From the NCBI GenBank assembly GCA_018993265.1, contig JAGKSW010000001.1, positions 1 through 34,559 of the forward strand: a DNA stretch of 34,559 bases, in the 5' to 3' direction. Source of the stretch: Nostoc sp. TH1S01 (GTDB lineage: Bacteria > Cyanobacteriota > Cyanobacteriia > Cyanobacteriales > Nostocaceae). The translations under genes and the position numbers were made by a program. The notes under the pieces are model-generated. The model searched no databases and had not been told where the DNA came from. It worked only from the letters and a program-made list of their open reading frames with translations. Shown here in pieces: positions 1,788 through 17,566 of the stretch (position 1 is the stretch's first letter; each line of letters starts with the position of its first letter).

Positions 1788-1921
1788 AGCCAGCCTGACA
1801 AAACTTTGCTTGATTCTACTTATATTACACCTTGCTTCTACTTTGTCTCTATTTCTCAGGAATCTCCGGCTTTAAAGGCAGAAATACTATGAAAACAGCA
1901 AATTTCACTTAGGTTCGCCCC

Positions 1922-2182
1922 ATGAATACTTCCCTAACAACTTCCACTAACCCCCAAGCTTCTACCCAAACTTCACAGTTAATTCCAGTATCTTCTTCAA
2001 CAATTGAAAATCCTTCTGCTTGGATACGTGACGGCTACAGTCCGACAGAAATTATTCTTGCAGCAACCTTTTTAACTTCCTTGTTGATGGGAGGAACTGC
2101 GACTTTGATTATGGCAATAACTGGGTTAGTCAAAACTTTAGTACCAGCGATAATAAACCAAACTCAGCAAGAAAGAAAATAA
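1922..2182 (+). CDS. small single-pass membrane protein, function unknown
   Basis: The 86-residue product has a Ser/Thr/Gln-rich N-terminal tail of about 38 residues. A hydrophobic segment follows (about 42-76, ILAATFLTSLLMGG to TLVPAII), then a short charged end, QTQQERK. This fits a small inner-membrane or thylakoid protein with one long or two short helices. It starts 134 bp from the divergent STAND gene and may share its promoter region. I do not recognise the family. A strong hairpin at 2247-2279 lies downstream. Confidence 0.6.
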   Translation: MNTSLTTSTNPQASTQTSQLIPVSSSTIENPSAWIRDGYSPTEIILAATFLTSLLMGGTATLIMAITGLVKTLVPAIINQTQQERK

Positions 2183-2246
2183 TTGATCGCCATAGCTAGC
2201 CAATAAATTTATTTCTTGGCTAATCGTTCAAGTCCACTCAAAATTT

Positions 2247-2279
2247 AGATCCCCGACTTCTTCAAAAAGTCGGGGATCT
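2247..2279. terminator. 13-bp hairpin between convergent genes
   Basis: AGATCCCCGACTT (2247-2259) pairs perfectly with AAGTCGGGGATCT (2267-2279) across a 7-nt loop. It lies between the + strand small membrane gene and the - strand ParR-like gene, so it can terminate both. This palindrome is a common dispersed repeat in Nostoc-type genomes. Confidence 0.7.
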
Positions 2280-2383
2280 GAAGACCTGCGTAAATCTCAT
2301 CATGCTAAAAATTAATAATCCTTAATAGTCTGCACTACTAAGGATTTCTCAAAAATATTAATACTCACAATTCAAACCGTCTC

Positions 2384-2902
2384 TTAAAAATCATCAAGAA
2401 ACTGACTGAGACGACTAATCACAGGGTCAACATCTTCTGGAGGTGTAGCAGGGTGGCTAGTGTTAACCTTTTCCATTGCTGGGACTGTTGACACTACAGG
2501 CGCTGGCGCTGGTGAAGTTGGAGGCTGATGGTGAATAATCTGCGATCGCTCTGTAACCAAAATGGCTAGATGCGCCATTTGTTGCGTGAGTTGCACAATA
2601 TGGCGTTCCATCGCCTCCAAACGATTCGATTCTTTAGCGAAAAAACGTTCCTCTAGGTCAGCCACTTGGCGTTGCAGTTCATCGATTTTCTGTTCAACCG
2701 ACTCTGCGGCTATTGGTTTGGAAGCAGGTTTAACAGATTCCGGGACACATAAAAATTGCCATAGGGCTTCTTTACAGAGGTCGCTAAAAGTCTTGTCTGG
2801 TTGAGGCTCTAAATGGCTTTCTACCAGCGACAACAAGCTTTCGTCTGCAACTTCTGGGTTGAACGTCACCGATTTAACTACTTTTTTTGACCATTGGAAC
2901 AT
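2384..2902 (-). CDS. ParR-like partner of the actin-like protein (possible RHH plus coiled coil)
   Basis: The product has 172 residues. Residues about 8-52 (VTFNPEVADESLLSLVESHL and on through the FSDLCKEALWQFL helix) resemble a short beta strand followed by two helices, as in ribbon-helix-helix DNA-binding adaptors. Residues about 70-120 form a heptad coiled coil (EQKIDELQRQVADLEERF). A Pro/Thr-rich linker and an acidic C-terminus follow. It starts 5 bp after the actin-like gene, so the two are almost surely cotranscribed. This layout matches type II partition modules (ParM filament plus ParR adaptor). No centromere-like iterons are obvious. The role is inferred from the neighbour and fold prediction, not from clear sequence identity. 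Confidence 0.6.
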   Translation of the reverse strand: MFQWSKKVVKSVTFNPEVADESLLSLVESHLEPQPDKTFSDLCKEALWQFLCVPESVKPASKPIAAESVEQKIDELQRQVADLEERFFAKESNRLEAMERHIVQLTQQMAHLAILVTERSQIIHHQPPTSPAPAPVVSTVPAMEKVNTSHPATPPEDVDPVISRLSQFLDDF

Positions 2903-2907
2903 TGGCT

Positions 2908-4056
2908 TTAAGACCTAGCAGCGCGAACGGCGGATAATTGCGCCTCTCCATAAATATACTGCCCCAAGGCGTTAGCTTGGCGAGATGGTGCAGCCAAATG
3001 GGCGTTGATTTGAGCATCCTTTAACAAACGTTGCACATCTTCCCAGAAGAATTCGCCGCCACCGCCTGTGATAATCACATCGGTCACACGCTCAGGTAGC
3101 CAAGCAAGGACACGGCTGCAAATATCACGAGAAAACATTTCAATCAAGTTGGGGAGAAAATCATCCAGGTTAGCAGGCTTACTAGAGCCTTTGGGACGAT
3201 AGAAACGTTCTCCTCTGGGTTTGTTAACAGCAGAAATAAGAGCTAGAGATTGGCTGTCTGCGCCTTCAATTTCTTTAGCTACCATTTCGTAGAATTTGCT
3301 CATTCCGAAATCTTCACTCTTAGAAGCACCGCGAGCAAAGCGGAAGTTATCTACCATCAACAAATCGATGGTTTGATGTCCAATATCGACAATAGCAGCT
3401 GATACTTTGGTAAAGTCGGGGCTGCCTGCACCTTTTTTGGGTTGAGCTTCACACCAGAGAAGACTACCGTAACCTTCAGGCATTACCCAAACTTTATTGA
3501 TATTGAGAGAGACACTTTCGCCTCTAAAATTCATCACGTGAGGGCCAGTCAGCTGACTGATGATTTGCGCCTTTTCTTTTTCAAATTGCTCTAGAGAGAG
3601 GAAGGGTAGACCCAGCACTATAGAAATTTCGTCTTTTAGCTTGAAGTAGCCAGCACATGCCAAAACTTTAGCCAGTGCGTCTTCTACCTTAGATTTACCA
3701 ACTCCGAGGTTTGCGCCAAAATCTGCGGCTAGTTGACCGACAGCATAGCCACTGCCTTGATACTCCATCCACAAATCCATTAAAGGATCTGTAGCACGAG
3801 CTTCAAAAATACCTCCCCGGACTTCTTCCATTGACATTTGTTTGACATTGGCGGGGATGAAAACCACATTATTGGGTTCGCGGCTGACACAAGTCTTGGT
3901 TGATGTTCTGCCTAAGTCCACACTGAGAATGGCCTTACCAGAACTGCCATTAGTTTTAACAGGAGTAGCAGTATTAATTGGGGTAGATGCTGAAACCCGG
4001 TTGAGAGGGATAGCAGCAGCATTCATTGGGGTAGCGGCGGAAGGTTGGTCTGTCAT
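2908..4056 (-). CDS. ParM/StbA-family actin-like ATPase
   Basis: The product has 382 residues when started at ATG 4054-4056, which has AGGAG five bases upstream; an upstream TTG at 4086 would add ten residues but has no comparable site. A low-complexity Ala/Pro/Thr N-terminal tail precedes the actin-fold phosphate-1 motif LSVDLGRTSTK, the phosphate-2 motif AAIVDIGHQTIDLLMV and the adenosine motif DVIITGGGGEFF. These are the nucleotide-binding signatures of ParM/Alp proteins, which form polar filaments that push plasmids or other cargo apart. The surroundings look chromosomal, so the cargo may not be a plasmid. It is paired with the coiled-coil gene immediately downstream. Confidence 0.85.
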   Translation of the reverse strand: MTDQPSAATPMNAAAIPLNRVSASTPINTATPVKTNGSSGKAILSVDLGRTSTKTCVSREPNNVVFIPANVKQMSMEEVRGGIFEARATDPLMDLWMEYQGSGYAVGQLAADFGANLGVGKSKVEDALAKVLACAGYFKLKDEISIVLGLPFLSLEQFEKEKAQIISQLTGPHVMNFRGESVSLNINKVWVMPEGYGSLLWCEAQPKKGAGSPDFTKVSAAIVDIGHQTIDLLMVDNFRFARGASKSEDFGMSKFYEMVAKEIEGADSQSLALISAVNKPRGERFYRPKGSSKPANLDDFLPNLIEMFSRDICSRVLAWLPERVTDVIITGGGGEFFWEDVQRLLKDAQINAHLAAPSRQANALGQYIYGEAQLSAVRAARS

Positions 4057-4167
4057 GAAAGCTCCTAGTCCTTTCTTAACTGTCAAAATTTAACTTGCTC
4101 ATCTTACATACAAACATGCGAGATACCAGAAATTCTAGGTTTCGTCAAGTGTAGCTACAAATACGCC

Positions 4168-4201
4168 TAATGCTGAGTTAGGCGATCGCAAATTCAGCAT
4201 T
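4168..4201. repeat. intergenic inverted repeat enclosing a HIP1 site
   Basis: ATGCTGA and TCAGCAT flank a GCGATCGC octamer in the gap between the DedA gene and the actin-like gene. It may form a hairpin after transcription. No function is assigned. Confidence 0.4.
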
Positions 4202-4279
4202 ATTTGGCATAGTGTAGGCGAATTTTTACCAGATGTAACCCCCCAACTTTAAATAAAATTTAAATTCGGGTTGTATATT

Positions 4280-4894
4280 TTAGCGTCTAGTCCGTTTTCG
4301 CCTACGCTTGAGTACCCAGACCACAAATGCCAATACCAAAATCCCAAGCACAATTTTTGATACTGGGGCAAGGTACTTGTCCACAAGTTCATACTGGCTA
4401 CCCAACACATACCCTGAGTATGTTAACAAACCTACCCAGGCAGCACTACCCAAGGTTGTATAAAATAAAAATGGTAGCAGAGGCATATCGCTAATGCCTG
4501 CTGGCACTGAAATTAATGTACGGATTCCCGGTACAAGACGACCAATTAACACTGCTTTGCTACCTTGAGAATCAAACCAGTGCTTTGCTTTGGTAATATC
4601 TTTGCTGGATATGGTTAACCACTTGCCGTACTTATCCGCCCACCTTTTTAGGCGCTGTTCGCCCAAAAACTTACCAGGATAGTACCATACAAGTGCGCCA
4701 GCTACAGAACCTACAAGTCCGGCAAAAAAGACTCCAAGAATATTTAATCGGTCTGGAGTTGCCCTAGCGGTAAATCCTGCCAGTGGCATAATCAATTCTG
4801 AAGGAATCGGGGGAAACAGGTTCTCTACGAACATTAACAGCGCAATTCCTACGTATCCCAAGGAAGTGATCGTACTAGTAATCCATTCAAGCAT
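4280..4894 (-). CDS. DedA family membrane protein
   Basis: The 204-residue product has four to five hydrophobic segments and the DedA/SNARE-associated signatures: ENLFPPIPSELIMPLAGF near residues 24-41 with its conserved Glu and Pro residues, and the F.GRLVPGIRTLISVPAG motif around residues 117-135. It ends in a basic tail (KRRRKRTRR). DedA proteins are inner-membrane proteins proposed to flip undecaprenyl phosphate or phospholipids. It starts at ATG 4892-4894. The gene stands alone, with a 223-bp gap to the actin-like gene. Confidence 0.9.
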   Translation of the reverse strand: MLEWITSTITSLGYVGIALLMFVENLFPPIPSELIMPLAGFTARATPDRLNILGVFFAGLVGSVAGALVWYYPGKFLGEQRLKRWADKYGKWLTISSKDITKAKHWFDSQGSKAVLIGRLVPGIRTLISVPAGISDMPLLPFLFYTTLGSAAWVGLLTYSGYVLGSQYELVDKYLAPVSKIVLGILVLAFVVWVLKRRRKRTRR

Positions 4895-5003
4895 TGAGTG
4901 TATTCCTAAAATTACGGCACAAGTTTGGTTGCCTAACCTAGCGTTAATCTTCTTAAAACTTTACTTATGATCAGTACCTACTGGTGAGATCATCAGCAAA
5001 ATT

Positions 5004-5030
5004 TTAGGGGCGCAATCATTACGCCCCTAA
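5004..5030 (-). terminator. rho-independent terminator of the oxidoreductase gene
   Basis: TTAGGGGCG (5004-5012) pairs with CGCCCCTAA (5022-5030). On the minus strand the stem is followed by an A/T tract (AAAATTTT). It lies 30 bp downstream of the stop codon at 5061. Confidence 0.7.
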
Positions 5031-5060
5031 GTATTTTATGTATTCAATTGAACAGAACTA

Positions 5061-6140
5061 TTAGATTGTGGAAGTTAAGGATTGGACTCTAGATTCAGAT
5101 TGCCAGTCTAATGGATTGAATACTCTATCTTCTAAAGCCATTTGCTCAATTAAACTGGCTAATCTGAGGGCTTTGAGAGCTTGCTCACCGCCAACGGAAG
5201 GTTGATTACCACCGTGAACACAGTTGACAAAATGTTCTAGTTCTGCGCTCAGGGGTTGAATATTGGTGGTGTAAACTTTTTCAATCAAACCATCTTGTCT
5301 GTAAAGTAGCTGACGATTGTCAGTTAAATTGGTGGTTGTTTGCCGATGAATCAGAATTTCGTTCTTGAGAAAATCTGCTTCCGTGAAGGAGTTTTTACAA
5401 TGGGCAACAATGCGTCGAATCTTTTTGTGGGTGACTTTACTGGCTGTGAGAGTAGCGACAATGCCATTGGCAAATCCCAAGGTGGCTGTCACGTAATCTA
5501 AATAACCAGAGTCTAAAGCACGAGTCCCGCTTGCTGTCAGTTTCACAACTGGAGAGGCGGCTAATTCTAGCATTAAGTCAATGTCGTGGATCATTAAATC
5601 CAGTACTACGGAAACATCATTTGCCCGATCTGAGTAAGGACTCATCCGGTGAGCTTCCAGCGCCAGCAATTCTTCGGTTTTCAGGACTTTGCTGAGTTCT
5701 TGAAATGCGGGATTGAAGCGCTCAATATGACCTACTTGTAAAATGCACTGAGATTCAGCTGCTGCATTGACTAGAGATTCTGCTTCCGAAATACTAGCAG
5801 CGATCGGCTTTTCAATTAAAACGTGAATTCCAGCTAATAGGCAATTAATGCCGACAGCATAATGCATACGAGTAGGTACGGCGATGCAGACTGCTTCCAC
5901 ATGGGGTAGCAAGTCACAATAATCTTCAAAAAAACGCACCTTGTATTTGCTGGCAGTTTCTAAGCCTCGTTCAACATTGATATCTGCCACACCGACTAGT
6001 TCAACATCTTTCATTGAACTCAATACGCGGGCATGATGTTGTCCCATGTTACCCACTCCGATTACGCCTACGCGAATCGGTCGTGGCTGATTGCGCTGTG
6101 TGTATGAATTTGATTCTGCCACTGACATGCTATTTTGCAC
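5061..6140 (-). CDS. Gfo/Idh/MocA family NAD(P)-dependent oxidoreductase
   Basis: The N-terminal Rossmann fold begins with VGVIGVGNMGQHHARVL, the glycine-rich dinucleotide site. EKPIAASISEAE, the conserved EKP cofactor motif, follows, and then the C-terminal alpha/beta domain with HIERFNPA and DLMIHDIDLML, whose HDID supplies catalytic residues. The family oxidises or reduces sugars and related polyols. The HIERFNPAF pattern recalls UDP-sugar 3-dehydrogenases of cell-envelope pathways, but the substrate is not known. GAGGAG lies nine bases before GTG 6138-6140, so I choose that start (359 residues). An upstream TTG at 6191 would add 17 residues without a better site; ATG at 6128 is the other option. 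Confidence 0.85.
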   Translation of the reverse strand: MQNSMSVAESNSYTQRNQPRPIRVGVIGVGNMGQHHARVLSSMKDVELVGVADINVERGLETASKYKVRFFEDYCDLLPHVEAVCIAVPTRMHYAVGINCLLAGIHVLIEKPIAASISEAESLVNAAAESQCILQVGHIERFNPAFQELSKVLKTEELLALEAHRMSPYSDRANDVSVVLDLMIHDIDLMLELAASPVVKLTASGTRALDSGYLDYVTATLGFANGIVATLTASKVTHKKIRRIVAHCKNSFTEADFLKNEILIHRQTTTNLTDNRQLLYRQDGLIEKVYTTNIQPLSAELEHFVNCVHGGNQPSVGGEQALKALRLASLIEQMALEDRVFNPLDWQSESRVQSLTSTI

Positions 6141-6524
6141 TATTGTTCTCTCCTCAACCACCAAATTTAGAGACGCTGCGGCCGTTGGCAATTATACTGA
6201 ACAGCCAGTTATGATCCGTCTAAAACCATCCAGATGGTAACATAGAGGCTCTGTTTATGAAGAATTTCAAAGTTTGCGATAGTTCCCGCAATCTGGCTGT
6301 CTTTTTTACGTTCAGTTTTAAATCAATCAGTTTTTTGCTTTTTGCACAATAGCTAATGTGTTTTTTTATTAACTTTAAACACAAACTAAATTTTAAGTGA
6401 AAATTCCGGAATGCTAATTGGGTAATTGACTACCAGGAAATTTACCAACTTAAAACGTTGTAAATAAAGGTTTTTCTTGTCAGTAAAATTACAAAAATAT
6501 GTACACTAACACTGAGACATTAGT

Positions 6525-6540
6525 CCAGTTTATAAACTGG
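6525..6540. promoter_or_regulatory. perfect 16-bp palindrome upstream of queC
   Basis: CCAGTTTATAAACTGG reads the same on both strands and lies 95 bp upstream of the queC ATG. It could be an operator for a dimeric regulator or an RNA hairpin with a tiny loop. No regulator is identified. Confidence 0.45.
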
Positions 6541-6560
6541 TACAGTATGGAAGAAAAATA

Positions 6561-6588
6561 AAGCCATCAGGCTGGCTTCAACTTTTTT
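6561..6588 (+). terminator. terminator-like hairpin in the queC leader
   Basis: AAGCCA (6561-6566) pairs with TGGCTT (6573-6578), and six T residues follow at 6583-6588. It stands 47 bp before queC, where it could act as an attenuator or end an upstream transcript. The stem is only six base pairs. Confidence 0.4.
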
Positions 6589-6635
6589 CATTATGATGAT
6601 TTGGCAATGAAAAATCTAAAAATTTGGCAGTCGAG

Positions 6636-7331
6636 ATGAAAGCCGTAATTTTGTTGTCTGGGGGATTAGACTCTTCTACTGTACTGTATCAAGCCAAAGC
6701 AGACGGTTGTGAGTGTTACGCAATTTCTTTTGATTATCAACAGCGACATCGCCGAGAGTTAAACTCAGCTATGCTTGTAGCACAAACGGCTGAGGTAAAA
6801 GAACATCAAGTAGTCAATTTTGACTTACGCAAATGGGGTGGTTCAGCACTGACAGATGAAAAAATCGATATTCCCCAAGCACGTTCTTTGGAAGAAATGT
6901 CAGAAAATATTCCTGTAACTTATGTACCTGCACGGAATACGATATTTCTCAGTTTTGCTTTGGGCTATGCAGAAGCGATCGCCGCTGAACGCGTGTACAT
7001 TGGTGTAAATGCCTTGGATTATTCCGGCTATCCTGATTGTCGTCCTGACTACATCCAGGCAATGCAAGAAGTTTTTCGCCTGGGAACTAAACAAGGACGA
7101 GAAGGTAATGCAACTGCGATCGCTGCGCCTTTGGTTAATCTGAAAAAAACCGAAATTATCCAGCTTGGTAACAAATTAGGCGTTCCTTGGCATTTAACTT
7201 GGTCTTGCTATACCGGTGGTGATGTGGCCTGTGGAGTTTGTGATTCTTGTCGCTTGCGGCTGGCGGCTTTTGAGGAATTGGGATTAAAAGATCCGCTGCC
7301 TTATGCTGAGGGCGTGGGGAGTCGGGAGTAG
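6636..7331 (+). CDS. queC: 7-cyano-7-deazaguanine (preQ0) synthase QueC
   Basis: This ATP-dependent enzyme converts 7-carboxy-7-deazaguanine and ammonia to preQ0 on the way to queuosine in tRNA. The PP-loop SGGLDSS lies at residues 8-14, and the C-terminal zinc site is CGVCDSC plus an upstream Cys in TWSCYTGGDVAC. The YVPARNTIFLS and YSGYPDCRPDY stretches are typical QueC motifs. An in-frame TTG at 6624 would add four residues, but nearly all homologues begin MKAVILLSGG, so ATG 6636 (231 residues) is preferred. Other queuosine genes are not adjacent. It is convergent with the CNNM-CBS gene, with an 83-bp gap that contains GGG-rich low-complexity sequence. Confidence 0.96.
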   Translation: MKAVILLSGGLDSSTVLYQAKADGCECYAISFDYQQRHRRELNSAMLVAQTAEVKEHQVVNFDLRKWGGSALTDEKIDIPQARSLEEMSENIPVTYVPARNTIFLSFALGYAEAIAAERVYIGVNALDYSGYPDCRPDYIQAMQEVFRLGTKQGREGNATAIAAPLVNLKKTEIIQLGNKLGVPWHLTWSCYTGGDVACGVCDSCRLRLAAFEELGLKDPLPYAEGVGSRE

Positions 7332-7414
7332 AGAGTGGGGTTATCGGCAAGGGTGCAGGGATATAGGGGTGTAGGGAGGAAATATGACAGCTTTGTGCCT
7401 TTGCCAAAAAGCCC

Positions 7415-8770
7415 TTATCCTCTCGGTAAGCGTTGCACCTGGATTTGATGTAGCCTTGGGCCGAAAATTGAGACTATGGTGAACTGAAGATTTTCGTATA
7501 AAAAGATTTCACCTTTAGTTGGCATTTTCTGCAATTGATAAAGTAAAAAACCGCCTAAAGTTTGATATTCCCTAGCTACAGGCAAACTGAGATTTAATAC
7601 TTCGTTGAGGTCTTCGAGATTAATTTGTGCTTGTACTAAAAATGTGTCTTGATCCACAATTTCAATTAACAAGTCGTCGCTGTTTTCCGGTTCCCCTGTA
7701 TTGCCAATAATTTCACCAATCACGTCTTGAATGGTCACTAGCCCTACAGTCCCGCCAAACTCATCTACAACGATGACCATAGCGGGTTTTTCCTGTTGCA
7801 TCATTGGCAAAAGTTCACTCAAGGGTGTGTTTTCTGGCACAAATCGGGCGGGACGCATCCAAGGTTGGAGATGGGATGTCAAAGTTAGTTTCTCCATTGC
7901 CAAGGGTTGGGCTAAGTCTCGAAAGTAAACAATACCGCGAATGTCATCTAAAGATTCGCCAATGATGGGATAACGGGAGTGACCAGTAGCTGTCATTTCC
8001 TGGAGTAAATTCTGGAAGGTAGCATCTTTGGGTAAGGCAATAATCCCATTGCGAGGAATCATCACATCTTGGGCGGTGACATCGCCAAATTCAAAGACAT
8101 TATTCAGGAGTTGACGTTCAGAATGTTCTAAACCGATAGATTCCCGTTCTGTGGCAATGATCATCTGCAATTCTTCTGAGGTAACTGGTGGTCTCCAGCT
8201 TTGACCTGTGTATTCAATGCCAAAAATGCGTAACAAACAACGAGTTGATTGGTTGAGAATCCAGATGAAGGGACTGAAAAAACGGACGATGGCTTTAACT
8301 GAAGGGCCTAAAAATCGCGCTAGTTGTTCAGAATACAGCAAAGCCAGTGACTTCGGGCATAATTCCCCTAAGACAATTTGCAGATAAGCTACCAAAAAAA
8401 AGGCTAAGGGAATTGATAGCGAATGGGCGATGAACTTAGTTGTGCTTTCTGGTAAAGGCCAAGATTTCAGCCACGCACCTACCAGCACCACAATTGTGCT
8501 TTCGCCAATCCATCCCAGTGCCAAACTAGAGAGGGTAATGCCTAACTGTGTTGTTGATAGCAGCCGATCAATACTGCGTTGTAGTGTTTCAACTGCGATC
8601 GCTTGTACGTCACCAGCCTTGACTAACTGATGAATCCGCGATCGCCGCACTGTCACCATCGAAAACTCTGCCGTCACAAAAAAGGCATTGATGGCAATCA
8701 GCAGTAGTACTGATAATAGTCGCAACCCCACATCTGCCCAAGTTAAACCAGGAAAACCAATCACTGCCAA
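7415..8770 (-). CDS. CNNM/CorC (HlyC-type) membrane protein with CBS pair
   Basis: The 451-residue product has an N-terminal CNNM/DUF21 domain with about four hydrophobic segments (residues 10-190, including LGITLSSLALGWIGE and VLGELCPKSLAL). A CBS pair follows (about 225-345: VMIPRNGIIALPKDA, RYPIIGESLDDIRGIV, MVIVVDEFGGTVGLVTIQDVIGEI), and then a C-terminal CorC_HlyC domain. Members are Mg/Co efflux or transport-linked proteins whose CBS domains bind Mg-ATP; the old name haemolysin is misleading. The start at 8770 gives the usual length. It appears monocistronic. Confidence 0.93.
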   Translation of the reverse strand: MAVIGFPGLTWADVGLRLLSVLLLIAINAFFVTAEFSMVTVRRSRIHQLVKAGDVQAIAVETLQRSIDRLLSTTQLGITLSSLALGWIGESTIVVLVGAWLKSWPLPESTTKFIAHSLSIPLAFFLVAYLQIVLGELCPKSLALLYSEQLARFLGPSVKAIVRFFSPFIWILNQSTRCLLRIFGIEYTGQSWRPPVTSEELQMIIATERESIGLEHSERQLLNNVFEFGDVTAQDVMIPRNGIIALPKDATFQNLLQEMTATGHSRYPIIGESLDDIRGIVYFRDLAQPLAMEKLTLTSHLQPWMRPARFVPENTPLSELLPMMQQEKPAMVIVVDEFGGTVGLVTIQDVIGEIIGNTGEPENSDDLLIEIVDQDTFLVQAQINLEDLNEVLNLSLPVAREYQTLGGFLLYQLQKMPTKGEIFLYENLQFTIVSIFGPRLHQIQVQRLPRG

Positions 8771-8837
8771 AGCTCGTGTAAACTCACGCCCCTATTTTTG
8801 AATTAGATATTAAGAAAGTATGAAATATCAAGAATGA

Positions 8838-8866
8838 GCTTCATACTTCATACTTCATACTTCAGT
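8838..8866. repeat. tandem heptamer TTCATAC (STRR)
   Basis: Three copies of CTTCATA in tandem, starting after GAG and ending in CTTCAG, lie 10 bp downstream of the anchored-protein gene. Heptameric short tandemly repeated repeats are typical of heterocystous cyanobacteria. Confidence 0.75.
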
Positions 8867-8874
8867 TCCTGTCC

Positions 8875-9573
8875 CTACCTTGCTACAGGGATGTCAGATA
8901 CATCTAACTTGAGTTTTTGTGCAGGATAATCTGTCAAAGACAGAGAGACTTTGTTCACATCATCCAGTAAAGCTGTAGGAATAATCACTGTACCGGAAAA
9001 TGTTGGGCCATTTGCAGGTAATTCTGCTGGTAATCCTTCTGTACTGGCGCTCAAGGTTCTGCCTTTGTCGTCAGTCACATCTAAGAAACTATATAAAAAG
9101 CGCACAGAATCTTTACCTTTATTCTGCATTTTCACTTTTAGAAGTAAATCGCCTCCAGAGTAACGCGCCGATTGCACTGCAAAACTGACACCTTCACTTT
9201 CAGCACTGACGGGAAATCCTGGTTGGGGTTTTTCTTCAACTGCTTCTTGTGGTTTTTCTTGTGGCTTCTGTTTTTTATTGATATCTTCGTCGTCTTCTTC
9301 TGGTTTTTCTGATTGAGCAGCTTTAGCCTTACCCTCAATCCGAGATTTAACAATTTTTAATATTTCTTCTTCTTTTAATAAAGTTACTCCTGACTGTTGG
9401 GAATTACTGGTCTTGGCGCTGGCAAATTTAGTTGTAGGACGACCATCTGGGGTTGATACTCCTTTAAGAGCCAAGCTACCCAAATTGAACCCTAAAAACG
9501 CGCTTACAGACCCTGCGCCCAACATCAGGATTAACAGAATCAACGTCAGTATTACCGTAGAATTTATTTTCAT
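8875..9573 (-). CDS. membrane-anchored protein with Ig-like C-terminal domain
   Basis: The product has 232 residues from ATG 9571-9573; a TTG at 9582 would add three. One N-terminal hydrophobic helix (about 6-28) anchors it. A long hydrophilic Lys/Glu/Gln linker follows (about 65-120, repeated EKPQE). The C-terminal domain of about 100 residues begins GVSFAVQSARYSGGDLLLKV and includes MQNKGKDSVRFLY. This pattern resembles the DUF4352-type Ig-like fold of bacterial lipoproteins, but it is not a confident match. It is probably periplasmic or cell-surface. Function unknown. Confidence 0.7.
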   Translation of the reverse strand: MKINSTVILTLILLILMLGAGSVSAFLGFNLGSLALKGVSTPDGRPTTKFASAKTSNSQQSGVTLLKEEEILKIVKSRIEGKAKAAQSEKPEEDDEDINKKQKPQEKPQEAVEEKPQPGFPVSAESEGVSFAVQSARYSGGDLLLKVKMQNKGKDSVRFLYSFLDVTDDKGRTLSASTEGLPAELPANGPTFSGTVIIPTALLDDVNKVSLSLTDYPAQKLKLDVSDIPVAR

Positions 9574-9763
9574 CGCTGACAAGCTGTTGCTGAAGAATGC
9601 TGGTCTATATTAAGAGCATTGAAGTTATGTACCTCAATCCTTAAAAGAACTTAATCAATCATAGTGTGCATCATTTCATAATTAAATTATGAAGTATAAA
9701 AATCTGATAAACTGTGATACAAGGGTAGACAAGTAGCAAACTTGAGATAAAATTAATATTCGA

Positions 9764-9836
9764 CCAGGGTTGGCCGAGCGGTTGAGGCAGCGAACTCATA
9801 ATTCGCCCCAGGCAGGTTCAACTCCTGCACCCTGGA
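9764..9836 (+). tRNA. trnI-CAU: tRNA-Ile(CAT), lysidine type
   Basis: It is 73 nt long and no CCA is encoded. Acceptor CCAGGGT pairs with ACCCTGG, with discriminator A at 9836. Anticodon stem GCGAA/TTCGC carries loop CTCATAA, so the anticodon is CAT. T arm GCAGG-TTCAACT-CCTGC. The AACTCATAATT loop context matches chloroplast trnI-CAU rather than elongator tRNA-Met, so C34 would be changed to lysidine by TilS to read AUA. Confidence 0.9.
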
Positions 9837-9845
9837 TTTTTATCA

Positions 9846-10010
9846 GTGCTGAGTGCTGAGTAGAAAGTGCTGAGTCAGAATTCAGGAGTCAGAAGCCAGA
9901 ATTCAGAATTAATTGTGTGTGACACTTCGGCAAGCTTCTAATCATTGCCTTTAACTACTCAGCACTCAGCACTCAGCACTCAGCACTTAAGACGCAGCAC
10001 TCAGCACTCT
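9846..10010. repeat. inverted pair of heptamer tandem repeats
   Basis: AGTGCTG/GAGTGCT heptamers (9846-9878) face several CAGCACT copies (9957-10010) in the opposite orientation, so the transcript could fold into a long hairpin. Between them is an AGTCAGAATTCAGGAGTCAG block of the dispersed GAATTC-rich repeat that recurs at 25813, 27405 and 32560. The right arm abuts the stop of the next minus-strand gene and may act as its terminator. Confidence 0.75.
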
Positions 10011-10425
10011 AAAAACGGAATTCTGTACCGACTTTTAGTTTGTTGCTATTTAAGCGAGGAGATGCCAGCAAGGAAGTATCATAAGGATTGGGTAAATCTG
10101 GTGTGCGTAGATAAGGGTCATTACCTACTTGTTGAGTCATAACATCTCGATAGAGCGTGTTCATCAACTCAGCATCACGCGCTATTTCATTTTCTGGAAA
10201 AGAATCCTTGAAACCGGAACCATTACCAAGAAAATTTTGTAGCTGACGCTTGGGAGTGTTATTTTCGTAAAAATTGCGATCGTGACGGAAATAAGCTCGC
10301 TCAAATGCTTCATTAGCGGTTTCATAATTGGGTGTTTGCGTTTCAGCAGATGCCACAGCAGGGAAAATTAAACCAGTAGCTACAAGCACCAAAAGACCAC
10401 CAAAGGGTTTAAACTTTATACCCAT
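10009..10425 (-). CDS. small secreted protein of unknown function
   Basis: The 138-residue product has a clear Sec signal peptide: MGIKFKPF, a hydrophobic core GGLLVLVATGLIF, then AVASA before ETQT. The mature part is polar, with FERAYFRHDRNFYENNTP and LMNTLYRDV, and ends SPRLNSNKLKVGTEFRF. A shorter secreted protein at 29139 ends TPRLDSGGVRLTVTQF, so both share a (S/T)PRL(N/D)S motif and a terminal Phe. GAGGAG lies eight bases before the ATG. It is periplasmic or outer-membrane associated by inference. Confidence 0.75.
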   Translation of the reverse strand: MGIKFKPFGGLLVLVATGLIFPAVASAETQTPNYETANEAFERAYFRHDRNFYENNTPKRQLQNFLGNGSGFKDSFPENEIARDAELMNTLYRDVMTQQVGNDPYLRTPDLPNPYDTSLLASPRLNSNKLKVGTEFRF

Positions 10426-10525
10426 TTTCTTAACTCCTCAATTTTGAGCGAATCTTAACTTATGCTTAATTTCAGAACTCTGATGAGTTCAACCTTTGGT
10501 GTAGCACAACTGATAATCATTTGTA

Positions 10526-11146
10526 ATGACGCATTCTACTGAAACCCTTACCCAGGCTGATATTTGGGCAGCCACTGCTGACTTAGCCACTCTGCGCCAC
10601 AAGCTACTAGACTTGTTTTGCCAACTCGCCTATCAAGAAGGTGATTTTGTACTAGCTTCAGGGCTACGTAGCACTTATTACATTAATAAAACTCAGGTAA
10701 CACTCCATCCCCAAGGTTCTTTAGCCGTTGGACGTTTACTATTTCCCTTACTACCTGCGGATACGGAAGCTGTAGCAGGTTTAACATTAGGCGCTGATCC
10801 AATTGTGACAGCAGTTAGTGTGGTTTCTGTTTATGAAAACCGACCCATACCAGCACTAATTATTCGCAAAGAAGCCAAAGGTTACGGAACGAAAGCTTAT
10901 ATTGAAGGCCCGACTTTGCCTGAAGGTGCAAAAATTGTGGTTTTGGAAGATGTAGTGACTACTGGTCAGTCTGCCTTAAAAGCGGTAAATCGCCTGAAAG
11001 ATGCAGGATATAATGTCGAACAAGTAATTGGACTGGTAGACCGCAAGCAAGGAGGCGCAGAACTCTACCAATCTGTTGGTTTAAAGTTTGAAGCGTTGTT
11101 TGGAATTGAAGAGGTTCAACAAAGGTATCGAGAATTGGCTCTTTAA
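10526..11146 (+). CDS. pyrE: orotate phosphoribosyltransferase
   Basis: The 206-residue enzyme of de novo pyrimidine synthesis converts orotate and PRPP to OMP. The PRPP loop VVLEDVVTTGQSALKAV lies near residues 138-154, and the IRKEAKGYGTKAYIEG segment carries the flexible-loop Lys residues. The N-terminal LRSTYYINKTQVTLHP matches the orotate-site region. It starts at ATG 10526. It is divergent from the small secreted protein with a 100-bp shared promoter region. A 13-bp hairpin at 11220-11250 ends it, and the CAST remnant follows. Confidence 0.95.
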   Translation: MTHSTETLTQADIWAATADLATLRHKLLDLFCQLAYQEGDFVLASGLRSTYYINKTQVTLHPQGSLAVGRLLFPLLPADTEAVAGLTLGADPIVTAVSVVSVYENRPIPALIIRKEAKGYGTKAYIEGPTLPEGAKIVVLEDVVTTGQSALKAVNRLKDAGYNVEQVIGLVDRKQGGAELYQSVGLKFEALFGIEEVQQRYRELAL

Positions 11147-11219
11147 CAAGTCTTGAGACTAGAATCAGACAGCATATCCCTGAATTTTCATCCCTGAGCA
11201 AATTTGTCATTCCACCACA

Positions 11220-11250
11220 TGTAGAGGCGTAGCATTCCTACGCCTCTACA
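11220..11250. terminator. 13-bp hairpin downstream of pyrE
   Basis: TGTAGAGGCGTAG (11220-11232) pairs with CTACGCCTCTACA (11238-11250), with a 5-nt loop. This palindrome belongs to a dispersed family in Nostocales genomes. It can terminate pyrE transcription. Confidence 0.65.
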
Positions 11251-11328
11251 TACCAATTTGTGGGGAACGAGGGGTTTTTTCCATTTGAAGAGTATGACGT
11301 AGGGTTGGCATTCTCATTTCAACTCTGA

Positions 11329-11812
11329 ATTGACACATTAAATAAGCTTTTTAGTAAGAAAATAAATAAAAGTGCGAAGCAAAGCTTAAACGATACTCTA
11401 TATGAAATTCATAGAGAATCATCGGATATTCTAACGCAGTGTGCGGTTGCTTACCTAATAAAAAATGGTAATAAAGTTAATGAGGCAGAGGAAAATCTCG
11501 TACAATTAAATCAACGTCGCGTTGCAAAAGAAGTCGAAATTAAACGTTTAGAAACACAGATACAGAATACTCGATTACCTAATGGTCGAGATATAACAGG
11601 AGCTAAATCTAGTCAAGCATTTGACAATCTAATCAATCAGGTACCTAAAAATAATGAAGAATTTGCAGAATGGACAGCTAATTTTTTGAAAAAAATATCA
11701 AATTTACCATACCCAATATATTATCTAATTAAAAATTAGTATTAAATCTGGTACACAGGCATCTTATGGCACGCTGCAAGAGAAAGCGAGAGATTTAGCA
11801 TTGTCTGCTTAG
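11329..11812 (+). pseudogene. cas12k: cas12k remnant (N-terminus and RuvC core lost, frameshifted)
   Basis: Frame 1 is open from 11329 to TAG 11737-11739 and has no ATG, GTG or TTG near its beginning. It encodes CAVAYLIKNGNKVNEAEENL, a coiled stretch with RRVAKEVEIKRLETQI, LPNGRDITGAKSS, and FLKKISNLPYPI. These align segment by segment with the internal region of Scytonema hofmanni Cas12k (SYLLKNGCKLTDKEED, RRKVEIQIQRL, MPKGRDLTNAK, SSSLPFPLVF, from memory). Removing one A from the A5 run at 11731-11735 joins it to SGTQASYGTLQEKARDLALSA and TAG 11810-11812, which matches the Cas12k C-terminus (IRGSPHDKAKELALSA). The roughly 300 residues between, including the pseudo-RuvC domain, are missing. 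Full-length Cas12k is about 640 residues. The product cannot be functional. Confidence 0.85.
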
Positions 11813-11884
11813 TAATACAGAATTCATACTATTGGTAGATAAATTTCTATCTAAATGCTGTAATATCTAACATAATAAATCGGT

Positions 11885-12310
11885 GCCATCTATATATGAT
11901 GCGACAGTATCACCCCTTTGTTTAGATACTGTAAGAATGGGTTAGTTTAACACTTGAGAAAGTGTATTCTTTCTGGCCCTAGTAGCTGCCGACTCTACCT
12001 GTGCGTTCATCTAAGTGTTTGTTAGCGGTAATTGCTAGGGTAAGCAAATGCTGCTTTTAGGTGAGAAAGGACTCGCACCGAGACGCATGGGAAGTATAAG
12101 GTGTTAGGGATTCAAACAGCCCAGAACCTTTGCTCTTGACATCAGACTCTTTTAGCTTGGTGTTAGGTGCCAGAGCGGCCTGTATCACTGAAATCTTTGA
12201 TTTTGGTTTTACGAGGAACTTCTATCTCTTACTTTATAACAAAGTAAGGGTACGGGTATACCGTCACGGTGGCTACTGAACTACTAACTACCCCCTAATT
12301 TTTATTTTTG
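11885..12310 (+). ncRNA. type V-K tracrRNA (unusually long)
   Basis: The signatures agree with the tracrRNA of characterised V-K elements as remembered: GGGTTAGTTT (11939-11948), a hairpin ACACTT-GAGA-AAGTGT (11950-11965), CTTTCTGGCCCTAGTAGCTG (11969-11988) and GGTGGCTACTGAA (12268-12280). Other stems are ACAGTATC/GATACTGT (11904-11932) and CTTACTTT/AAAGTAAG (12228-12248). The anti-repeat TACTAACTACC (12282-12292) pairs over 11 positions, one of them G-U, with GGTAGTTGGTA of the local repeat (12513-12523). A T-rich stretch follows at 12298-12309. The span is about 400 nt, against a little over 200 nt in the best-known elements; the extra length lies between CTAGTAGCTG and GGTGGCTACTG. Exact ends are estimates. 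Confidence 0.85.
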
Positions 12311-12495
12311 GCAAGTTAAAGCAGAGGCAAAATCCATGAGATGCTGCCAAAAGTCTACAAAGCTTGTCTAAAACAAGTTTCATGCTTATCAAGATGAATC
12401 TAAGTTTATTTAGCTGTTGTAGAAAATTTGCTTTTAAGTAGACTTGCCAAAGTCACCTGTGAAAAACAGTGCAGATAAAAATTTTGAAAGTCAGA
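12311..12495 (+). promoter_or_regulatory. CRISPR leader region
   Basis: AT-rich stretch between the tracrRNA and the first repeat, with no ORF. CTTGTCTAAAACAAG near 12364 can form a small hairpin. Its leader role is inferred from position: the degenerate repeats are at the other end of the array. Confidence 0.5.
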
Positions 12496-12826
12496 GTTTC
12501 AACAACCCTGACGGTAGTTGGTAACTTGAAAGTAGCCGTAGCAAGCGACTTATAACTATCAGACAAATGTTTCAACAACCCTGACGGTAGTTGGTAACTT
12601 GAAAGGGCAATAATGAACAGTCTGTTTCTTTGATGGGGGAGGTTTCAACAACCCTGACGGTAGTTGGTAACTTGAAAGTCCCCAACCCCAGAACTCCAAA
12701 GTCTAGAGGTGGAGTTTCAACAACCCTGATGTTAGGTGGTAGGTTGCAACTTACCACCTGGAATCAGGAGTTAACCCACTATGCACCCAGCTTCAACAAG
12801 CCTCAAAGTTGTTGGTGGTTTGAAAA
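12496..12826 (+). CRISPR. short V-K CRISPR array with decaying trailer end
   Basis: Three identical 37-bp repeats lie at 12496-12532, 12569-12605 and 12642-12678. Each begins GTTTCAACAACCCTGACG and ends GGTAACTTGAAAG. The spacers are 36, 36 and 35 bp (12533-12568, 12606-12641, 12679-12713). A fourth repeat (12714-12750) keeps the first 16 bases and diverges after. A fifth (12790-12826) matches at 26 of 37 positions and follows a 39-bp former spacer. The GTTTCAAC start and TTGAAAG end match V-K repeats. No adaptation genes are present, as usual for V-K. Minus-strand frames across the array are artefacts of the repeats. Confidence 0.95.
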
Positions 12827-12889
12827 ACATGATTTACTTATTTTTAAGTAAGCTAAATTTTATCTTTTTTATAGTATAGTTATTTACTA

Positions 12890-12920
12890 GGGTAGTTTGA
12901 AAGGAGCGCTGCGATCGCAC
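12890..12920 (+). other. delocalised truncated repeat with 17-nt homing spacer
   Basis: GGGTAGTTTGAAAG (12890-12903) keeps the 3' part of the array repeat, including the GGTAGTT that pairs with the tracrRNA and the TTGAAAG end. It is followed by GAGCGCTGCGATCGCAC (12904-12920). That spacer matches the tRNA-Ala gene (minus strand, 13313-13329) at 16 of 17 positions, the one difference being C versus T at spacer position 4. The protospacer is preceded by GGTA, fitting the V-K NGTN-type PAM. Truncated repeat-spacer units aimed at tRNA genes are the known homing device of V-K elements. Confidence 0.88.
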
Positions 12921-13119
12921 GATGAGACGCAGCCGTATTAGACAAAAAGGTAATAAATTTTTGGCGTTATACTGCAAATGAATCTTTTGAAAGCTAGATT
13001 AATTTGCATAGAAGGTTTCTAGCAACTTTAAAAGCATTTAATAAATTTTATTTTAATAACCAATAGGTTTGCTTTAATCTTCCAAAATTAAATTTCATAA
13101 TGTTGTGCGTCCTAATTTT

Positions 13120-13275
13120 GGACAATAATTCTTTAAAACTGGTTTCAACTCTGGACAATAATTCTTTAAAACTAGCTCGATGGCTGAAAGTCAGCAAGAT
13201 AGGCAATTTATGTCTCTTCACTTGGTAAAATTGGACAATAATTATTTAAAACTGACAATAATTATTTAATGTACA
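13120..13275 (+). repeat. transposon end with four TnsB-type boxes and TGTACA terminus
   Basis: Box copies lie at 13120-13140 and 13153-13173 (GGACAATAATTCTTTAAAAC plus T), at 13233-13253 (ATTATT variant) and at 13253-13275, where GACAATAATTATTTAA runs straight into TGTACA (13270-13275). The spacings between GACA starts are 33, 80 and 20 bp. Multiple TnsB sites and a TGTACA tip are typical of V-K transposon ends. The end lies 54 bp from the PAM in tRNA-Ala. The five bases next to it (13276-13280, GATGG) would be the target-site duplication, but the matching copy is not found in the window. Confidence 0.85.
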
Positions 13276-13277
13276 GA

Positions 13278-13350
13278 TGGAGAATAGGAGACTCGAACCC
13301 CTGACCTCTGCGGTGCGATCGCAGCACTCTACCAACTGAGCTAATTCCCC
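13278..13350 (-). tRNA. trnA-CGC: tRNA-Ala(CGC), CAST attachment site
   Basis: It is 73 nt long. Acceptor GGGGAAT pairs with ATTCTCC (one G-U pair), discriminator A. D arm GCTC-AGTTGGTA-GAGT. Anticodon stem CTGCG/CGCAG with loop ATCGCAC gives anticodon CGC. T arm AGGGG-TTCGAGT-CTCCT. A HIP1 octamer GCGATCGC lies across the anticodon arm. The gene is intact and carries the protospacer of the CAST homing spacer at tRNA positions 22-38. Its 3' end is 2 bp from the transposon tip. Confidence 0.93.
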
Positions 13351-15418: not shown

Positions 15419-17566
15419 ATGCCTTACGAAAACTTAGAAATTAACACACAAACACCCGTTTTATCTTGGGCAAATCATCCTTTAGCAAGTGATGAAACCA
15501 AGATGGCGCAAAATGTGGCATCACTACCATTTGTATTTAAACACGTCGCCTTAATGCCAGATGTGCATTTAGGCAAAGGTGCTTTAGTTGGTTCTGTAAT
15601 TGCTACCAAAGATGCCATCATTCCTGCTGCTGTGGGTGTTGATATTGGTTGTTTTGTAGGATATACTTTAGTTCCTTTAGTTGATGGAAAATATTATCGC
15701 ATTCAAGAATTAGCCGAAAAATATCAAGAGTTTATTGTTTATGCTTGCACTCCTACAGGCAGAATAGTTGCATCTACAGCAACCGCAAAATTGACTAGAA
15801 AAAATGCACCACTTGTCAAAGTTATTTTAGATAACGAAGAGGAGATTATTTGTACACCTGATCATCAATTTATGCTTCGGGATGGTAATTATCAAGAAGC
15901 TGGATTACTGCAACCAGGAACTTCTCTGATGCCTTTTTATTCTAAAGTTGACAAAGATGGCTATACCTTAATTTCTCAACCATACTCTAAACGATGGCAG
16001 AAAGCACATTGGATTATTGCTAGGTCTGGTTTACTAGGTGAAATTCCTAAAATTTTAGGACAAAGAACAGTTATTCATCATCGAAACTTCCAAGAATCTG
16101 ATAATCGACCAGAAAATTTGGAATTTATGGGTGCTAATGATCATTCTGCTTACCATCGTTCTTTAGTAAAGCAGAATCAGCATTGGCATTCTCCTGAATT
16201 TGAACAAAAAAGAATTGCTGCCTTAGCTAAAAAAGCACAAACTGTAGAGGGACATAATTATTACGCAGAAAGAGGCACTAAAAATATTCTGAAATATATG
16301 CAGCAGCAACCAGAACATTTTAAAAATGCTGTTGCGGATAATGGAAGTCGAGGGAAACAATATCTAATTACCTATAATACTAGTAGAGAAGGAAGAGCCA
16401 AGTCTCAGGAAATAGCGAATAGGTATTACACTTGTGAAATTTGTGGTGCAGAAGTGAAGACACCAATTGGTCTTCATAACCACCGTAAAAAAGAACATCA
16501 ATGTAACCACAAAGTTATAGCGGTTATCCCTCTAAAATACACAGAAGATGTTTATTGTTTGACAGTACCCGAATTTCACAACTTTGCTCTTAAAGCTGGA
16601 GTTTTCGTACATAACTGCGGTATGTCTGCTATCAAAATGCCATTTAATGGCGATAAATTAGAAGGCAAACTCAAAAAAATTCGCCTCGATATTGAAGCGG
16701 CAATTCCCACAGGTTTCAACGAAAATAAAGAAATTGAAAAATCGGTTTCTAACTGGCAACGTTGGCATGATTTTCAAGATTTGCACCCTGGTGTGCAGGA
16801 CTTAGAAAATAAATCGATGAAACAAATGGGTTCTCTTGGCGGGGGAAATCACTTTATTGAAGTGTGCCTCGATACAGAGAACCAAGTTTGGCTAATGTTA
16901 CATTCTGGTTCACGTAACATTGGGAATAAATTAGCTCAATGTCATATTAATACAGCTAAAGAATTAGCCAAGATGGCGGGGAATAATTTACCTGACCCAG
17001 ACTTAGCATATTTTGTGGCCAATACACCAGAATTTCAAGCTTACTGGAATGATTTGCAATGGGCGCAAGACTATGCACGTTTCAACCGCGATGTGATGAT
17101 GATGCGTTTTAAGCACATTATTGAAAAACATTTGGCGGGTGGAAAAGTAACTAAACCTTTATTACAGGTAAATTGTCATCACAATTACGCCGAAAAAGAA
17201 GTACATTTTGGCGAGGATGTGTATGTCACTCGTAAAGGAGCAGTCCGCGCCCAGACAGAAGATTATGGGATTATTCCTGGTTCAATGGGGGCGAAATCTT
17301 TCATTGTCAAAGGCAAAGGTAATGCTCATAGTTTCTGTTCTTGCAGTCATGGTGCTGGCAGATTATTATCCAGAAATAAAGCCAAAAATGTCTACACCCT
17401 TGATGACTTAATTGAGCAGACTAAAGGTGTAGAATGCCGCAAAGATAATGATGTTTTAGATGAGATTCCAGGTGCTTATAAACCAATTGAGCAAGTAATG
17501 GAAAATCAATCTGATTTAGTCGAAGTTGTGGCGACACTCAAGCAAGTTGTGTGTGTCAAGGGTTAA
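15419..17566 (+). CDS. rtcB: RNA ligase RtcB interrupted by an intein
   Basis: The 715-residue precursor, after splicing, gives an RtcB of about 393 residues. RtcB joins 2',3'-cyclic phosphate and 5'-OH RNA ends with GTP and Mn. The N-extein (1-77) includes LMPDVHLGKGALVGSVI and VGVDIG. The C-extein (from Cys400) begins CGMSAIK and includes the SLGGGNHFIE motif, MLHSGSRNIGN, QVNCHHNY and the SHGAGR site holding the GMP-linked His. Uninterrupted RtcB reads GVDIGCGM, so the intein sits directly before the metal-ligand Cys. It starts at ATG 15419 with no strong ribosome site. The gene stands alone, with a hairpin terminator at 17581-17610. Confidence 0.95.
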   Translation: MPYENLEINTQTPVLSWANHPLASDETKMAQNVASLPFVFKHVALMPDVHLGKGALVGSVIATKDAIIPAAVGVDIGCFVGYTLVPLVDGKYYRIQELAEKYQEFIVYACTPTGRIVASTATAKLTRKNAPLVKVILDNEEEIICTPDHQFMLRDGNYQEAGLLQPGTSLMPFYSKVDKDGYTLISQPYSKRWQKAHWIIARSGLLGEIPKILGQRTVIHHRNFQESDNRPENLEFMGANDHSAYHRSLVKQNQHWHSPEFEQKRIAALAKKAQTVEGHNYYAERGTKNILKYMQQQPEHFKNAVADNGSRGKQYLITYNTSREGRAKSQEIANRYYTCEICGAEVKTPIGLHNHRKKEHQCNHKVIAVIPLKYTEDVYCLTVPEFHNFALKAGVFVHNCGMSAIKMPFNGDKLEGKLKKIRLDIEAAIPTGFNENKEIEKSVSNWQRWHDFQDLHPGVQDLENKSMKQMGSLGGGNHFIEVCLDTENQVWLMLHSGSRNIGNKLAQCHINTAKELAKMAGNNLPDPDLAYFVANTPEFQAYWNDLQWAQDYARFNRDVMMMRFKHIIEKHLAGGKVTKPLLQVNCHHNYAEKEVHFGEDVYVTRKGAVRAQTEDYGIIPGSMGAKSFIVKGKGNAHSFCSCSHGAGRLLSRNKAKNVYTLDDLIEQTKGVECRKDNDVLDEIPGAYKPIEQVMENQSDLVEVVATLKQVVCVKG
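15650..16615 (+). mobile_element. intein with HNH homing endonuclease in RtcB
   Basis: Residues 78-399 (322 residues). Block A begins with Cys78 (CFVGYTLVPL). Block B is CTPDHQFMLRDG with T146 and H149. Block F is EDVYCLTVPEFHNFAL, and block G ends VFVHN with His398-Asn399, followed by Cys400 as the +1 nucleophile. All splicing residues are present. The insert includes an HNH core (VIHHRNF at 218-224, DNRPENL at 228-234, H242) typical of HNH endonucleases, and a zinc-ribbon or finger-like stretch (C339, C342, H353, H355, H360, C362). It should splice out after translation and could home into intein-less rtcB alleles. Confidence 0.93.

Follow-up and report, generated by a model that had tools for sequence, protein, structure and literature searches.

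The window, that is, the whole stretch of DNA analysed here, comprises 34,559 nucleotides of contig JAGKSW010000001.1 from Nostoc sp. TH1S01. Positions 11329-13275 contain, in this order, cas12k, a tracrRNA, a CRISPR array, a truncated repeat (R*) with an anchor spacer, and a transposon end, after which comes tRNA-Ala(CGC) (Table 1). This region is a decayed type V-K CAST. All the parts by which such a remnant is recognized are present, namely cas12k, tracrRNA, array, homing unit and proximal end. The parts that define a functional element, tnsB, tnsC and tniQ within the element and an opposite end with a target duplication, are absent. Chance is ruled out as the source of this arrangement because of the profile E-values and because the parts occur in identical order in relatives. 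The preliminary description had placed five V-K parts here, next to the tRNA that the homing unit targets, and this was borne out by profile, alignment, repeat and anchor evidence. A gene farther along the window, at 15419-17566, is presumably RtcB-like and seems to carry an intein.

Table 1. Features of the CAST remnant and its flanks in the window, and gene-less mini elements of two family members.
Feature	Position	Strand	Evidence or remark
Junction sequence, pyrE to cas12k remnant	11147..11336		Relatives' match stops at or soon after the pyrE stop
Interspersed repeat inside the junction	11203-11276		Repeat matches elsewhere in the genus
cas12k fragment	11329..11739	+	NF038191 (V_Cas12k) residues 162-284, 126.9 bits, E 7.9e-37
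Junction of 956-bp internal out-of-frame cas12k deletion	11727..11729	+	Comparison with G003
cas12k C-terminal fragment	11729..11812	+	NF038191 residues 603-628, 15.1 bits, E 0.0055
tracrRNA, ~433 nt	11878..12310	+	Alignments A1, A2; 120/123 consensus pairs kept
Anti-repeat, altered in the window element	12282..12292	+	Predicted unbroken 11-bp duplex with array repeats
CRISPR array	12496..12826	+	37-nt repeats: three identical (12496, 12569, 12642), two degenerate (12714, 12790)
Truncated repeat R* of homing unit	12888..12903	+	Comparison across relatives
17-nt anchor (homing) spacer	12904..12920	+	One mismatch (position 4) to tRNA-Ala
tRNA-proximal transposon end, repeated motifs, terminating TGTACA	13113..13275	+	89% identity to G003 end over 13119-13275
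GATGG at insertion point	13276..13280		Same bases in empty sites of G006, G009
tRNA-Ala(cgc), attachment site	13278-13350	-	Protospacer 13313-13329, GTA PAM 13330-13332
Mini element of G016	L080 7751-8270		
Mini element of G039	L168 11186-11851		

Relatives of the element were sought by a DNA search of 100 genomes, the window's own included, and matches were found in 32. The closest complete element found, G003:C186, contains tnsB, tnsC, tniQ, cas12k, tracrRNA, array, R*, anchor and end. It shares with the window the tracrRNA, the array layout, R*, the anchor design, the proximal end and a tRNA-Ala target. Its parts stand in the same order, with 86-90% DNA identity over cas12k and the tracrRNA. 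Unlike the window, G003:C186 has a full cas12k together with tniQ, tnsC and tnsB, and it is inserted beside tRNA-Ala(ggc); no far end was recognized in it. The small gene before its cas12k is one that we take to encode an Arc-type regulator. A whole element of the same lineage, G045:C209, occupies 3361-19565 of L068 with TATGG outside both ends, as judged by eye.

The preliminary description had attributed Cas12k similarity to 11329-11812, and the NF038191 profile search was positive for both pieces. They score below the curated cut-off of 150 bits, as expected of fragments. The first piece is an open frame of 136 codons that is also matched by PDB Cas12k chains (E 6.4e-18). Its DNA homology to G003 spans 11337-11727 (90% identity), and the C-terminal piece has 93% amino acid identity to G003. 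The dN/dS between the window fragment and G003 is 0.98 (8 synonymous and 30 non-synonymous changes). Relaxed selection on the fragment is only suggested by this comparison, because the ratio is already 0.53 between the intact genes of G003 and G042.

The tracrRNA follows the cas12k remnant on the same strand. It aligns over its full length with the copies of G003, G042 and G045, and from nucleotide 12-21 onward with those of G056, G017 and G024. Identity to ten relatives' copies is 80-95%, including 93.9% to G003. The core also matches DNA adjoining cas12k genes of other lineages, for example in G013 and G058, while an Rfam search returned no family match to the window tracrRNA. A consensus structure of 123 pairs was predicted from the ten relatives' copies, with the window excluded. 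Of these pairs the window breaks 3; G003 breaks 1, G042 none and the other copies up to 8. The earlier placement of a tracrRNA within 11885-12310 is thus supported by both the alignments and the consensus fold.

Random placement of the 17 changes of the window tracrRNA breaks 5.0 pairs on average, and 3 or fewer are broken in 17% of trials. Measured against the predicted fold, this test gave no clear sign of constraint that would point to ongoing selection on tracrRNA structure. A relative-rate count over 427 columns assigned 15 private changes to the window, 8 to G003 and 5 to G042; the corresponding numbers in a 183-column leader were 28, 23 and 17. By this contrast with the leader, the surplus of changes seen in the window tracrRNA is not significant. 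Six tracrRNA sites that are constant in the ten other copies differ in the window alone, and the counts for the other copies range from 0 to 25.

The anti-repeat of the window has a 4-nt insertion relative to most copies. Its duplex with the array repeats, predicted to be 11 bp long and unbroken, has a calculated energy of -16.1 kcal/mol, and 26/2000 shuffled repeats paired as well with it. In a duplex matrix of 8 lineage elements the window tracrRNA and array repeat are mutual best partners by row and by column. Besides the window only G017 is its own best partner both ways; the other 6/8 elements are not. Both the anti-repeat and the array repeats are altered and they still match each other, which suggests that the two changed jointly while the guide system still worked. 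A parallel change in R* was considered and dropped, as the window tracrRNA pairs slightly better with the R* of G003 (-12.9) than with that of the window (-12.2). The joint change of anti-repeat and repeat offers a test case for V-K tracrRNA-crRNA pairing. Promoter-like sites were no more frequent than in shuffled sequence, and the same search found no terminator-like site.

Rfam gave a single CRISPR-type match in the array, at 12790-12826 on the minus strand and below threshold. When the three array spacers (35-36 nt) were compared with plasmids, the first and third had no match and the second had two weak ones (E 0.1, Priestia and Acinetobacter), and the spacers were assigned no target. Downstream, 54 nt separate the transposon end from the GTA PAM. 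The CvkR survey (PMC9938897) gives a V-K layout with a 17-nt anchor, a GTN PAM and the end at 46-82 nt, into which the anchor, PAM and spacing of the window fit. Its CASTs also agree with the window remnant in the arrangement of their parts, which runs from the tRNA through the end, R* and the 17-nt anchor to the array and the tracrRNA. Among the other elements compared, the anchor spacer has 0 to 3 mismatches. The mismatch at protospacer position 4 was probably already present at insertion, as judged from the tRNA base shared by the empty-site relatives G001, G006 and G009. The window element is therefore likely a natural case of homing despite a guide mismatch. Eight cyanobacterial plasmids (H1-H8), 7 of them predicted to be conjugative, also have stretches of 45-51 bases that match the proximal end.

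The tRNA-Ala(cgc) site was compared among 10 genus-mates. Four of them (G001, G006, G009 and G010) have an empty site. In the first three of these an ATPase-like coding sequence, as judged by eye, runs into the tRNA, and in G010 its 3' part does so. In G004 a CAST from another lineage occupies the site, and its cas12k, tnsB, tnsC and tniQ frames are full-length. In G003 (C136) and G002 the transposon end alone is kept; the usual neighbour gene of G002 is on another contig. Traces of an end in G005 and an R*-anchor trace in G007 each lie on the far side of an island that contains a partial copy of the tRNA, and no CAST trace was found at the G008 site. In these islands of G005 and G007 (L116, L118), which adjoin tRNA-Ala, the partial copy is at a distance of 7.5-7.8 kb. 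They seem to represent another integrating element, one that uses the same tRNA as the CASTs. Near one tRNA-Ala of G042 (C1:3974816-4007956), three Cas12k genes or pieces lie in a row, which suggests stacked insertions.

The other side of the remnant has a different history. The preliminary description had regarded the interval from pyrE to tRNA-Ala as one whose counterparts could be sought in relatives. Empty tRNA sites were indeed found, as given above, while pyrE was nowhere near them, and pyrE could not be upheld as the original neighbour. In 7 of the 10 genus-mates, pyrE and tRNA-Ala(cgc) occupy different contigs; in the remaining 3 (G004, G006, G008) a single contig carries both, with over 1 Mb between them. 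Because pyrE is thus distant or on another contig in 10/10 genus-mates, it was presumably placed here by rearrangement. The block at 259-11137 is collinear with G009, and G005 and G006 differ by an inversion; an earlier reading in which the window itself carried the inversion was replaced accordingly. The inversion breakpoint between window/G009 and G005/G006 falls at window 1478-2299. The block that lies 3' of pyrE in G009 is on another contig in the present genome, by an unrelated gene and beside neither a CAST nor the tRNA-side gene. A search of this genome with the G009 tRNA-side gene gave short repeat-like matches only. The genome thus yielded no reciprocal junction, and a simple reciprocal inversion is not supported as the cause of the pyrE junction.

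We conclude that a later rearrangement with loss brought pyrE beside the remnant, and that misassembly is less likely. Under the latter reading the pyrE region was misjoined to the CAST, the rest of which would lie in a gap. The distance of pyrE from tRNA-Ala in genus-mates, the interspersed repeat within the junction and the 247 contigs of the 7.65-Mb draft assembly, in whose gaps a missing half could sit, are what this partial artefact would predict. We nevertheless consider it unlikely. The cas12k deletion at 11727 is internal to the element and away from the repeat, between the repeat and the start of cas12k homology (~11337) lie ~50-60 nt of other sequence, and a DNA search found tnsB of the lineage on no contig.

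The genome was searched further for the missing parts. No match to tnsB, tnsC or tniQ was found in the window, and no far end other than inverted similarity of the proximal end itself. With the whole G003 element as the DNA query, tnsB, tnsC and tniQ of the window lineage were not found in the assembly either, in agreement with the absence of these genes and of the opposite end in the preliminary description. A TnsB protein search of the assembly gave broken or distant pieces only: one with a stop on C100, adjoining an apparent IS transposase gene, a scrap on C131, and a distant match (27% identity) on C191. Other Cas12k matches are a C-terminal part (residues 359-629) at the edge of contig C62 and a 48-residue scrap on C131. 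No intact V-K CAST was found in the draft assembly, the other Cas12k and TnsB pieces being fragmentary. A scrap of the lineage's transposon end lies beside tRNA-Ala(ggc) at 2657-2759 of L125 (G000:C11).

The C62 piece belongs to a second V-K CAST remnant (G000:C62, L062 17-1887), which is located at tRNA-Val and whose 17-nt anchor is perfect. It is ShCAST-like, and has the effector family, guide layout and GTN PAM in common with the window element. The two differ in repeat and in end sequence, and the tracrRNA of the window lineage is, by eye, about twice as long. Use of the window guides in trans by another CAST of this genome, which had been offered as a possibility, is unlikely within the limits of a draft assembly, because no intact Cas12k or TnsB was found and because the C62 CAST has another repeat and other ends. 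These same two facts weigh against the broader proposal that the guide half is maintained by selection, its RNAs acting in trans with other Cas12k or as regulators. A nearly whole tracrRNA and an anti-repeat that still matches its repeat would be expected under such maintenance. The pairs broken in the window outnumber those broken in G003 and G042, and random placement does as well in a sizeable share of trials, so that we regard maintenance by selection as very unlikely.

The preliminary description had also supposed that the guide half is the part that persists longest. With most of the G003 element as query against the 100 genomes, the matches listed showed the proximal end in 17 genomes, tnsB in 13, tracrRNA in 9, cas12k in 8 and tnsC in 8, for segments that differ in length and conservation and a query in which no far end is recognized. 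The tally was counted by hand among these matches at ≥80 bits and ≥70% identity. tniQ, whose 70-75% matches include other lineages, was left out, and loci drawn from other searches, which are biased to the proximal end, were excluded. In G006 a remnant (L128 4877-7869) consists of frame-broken tnsB and tnsC plus a far end, and the 18 kb that were read contain no match to cas12k. The tally and this remnant speak against the supposition: tnsB outnumbers both tracrRNA and cas12k, and G006 keeps the tnsB-tnsC part instead. What survives thus varies from remnant to remnant, and among the matches listed no part is as common as the proximal end.

Some derivatives have no match to any CAST gene. Mini elements of ~520 bp in G016 and ~665 bp in G039 have both ends, CRISPR repeats and a homing unit, and these genomes hold full-length Cas12k elsewhere. 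Pieces in G015 and G172 likewise retain both ends, together with no more than part of a homing unit. Such two-ended elements make it conceivable that the window element, too, was a non-autonomous mini-CAST mobilized in trans. This reading is extremely improbable: the window has no far end, and the G016 element is whole in G016 alone among the matches listed from 217 family genomes, a distribution that fits origin by local deletion rather than movement.

We are highly confident instead that a complete V-K CAST of this lineage homed to tRNA-Ala(CGC), inserted there, and then died through deletion in cas12k and replacement of the sequence upstream. The homing step, by way of the 17-nt anchor spacer of a complete Nostoc-lineage element, is inferred from known V-K behaviour. 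Insertion took place 54 nt from the GTA PAM, a point fixed by the empty sites of relatives. A single out-of-frame deletion then removed most of cas12k. Separately, the pyrE region replaced everything upstream: the start of cas12k, cargo, tniQ, tnsC, tnsB and the far end, and also the gene that adjoins the tRNA where the site is empty. What remains, with a single end and neither transposase nor effector, cannot move. Death was probably recent, which would account for a tracrRNA, array and homing unit that are predicted to fold and pair nearly correctly.

Degenerated Cas12k loci have already been published, and the CvkR survey left 12 degenerated Cas12k proteins out of its tree (PMC9938897). In the part of that survey available to us, neither a guide-half remnant nor decay stages at one orthologous site are described. 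The remnant adds detail, in its good preservation, its anti-repeat change and the history of its site, and is not of a new kind. A literature search of limited reach recognized no report of gene-less V-K derivatives with their own guides. It is conceivable, if decidedly unlikely, that decay of CASTs at tRNA-Ala repeatedly gives rise to gene-less derivatives in which the element's own guide repeats and homing spacer survive together with one or both ends. On this reading some of them may be non-autonomous elements steered by their own guides and moved in trans, and the window remnant would be a sibling product. If so, the remnant, its far end lost, may still make guide RNAs that an incoming Cas12k of its lineage could load. 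The remnant illustrates how an RNA-guided transposon dies at its attachment site, a site that within one genus is seen empty, occupied by a CAST of another lineage, and scarred.
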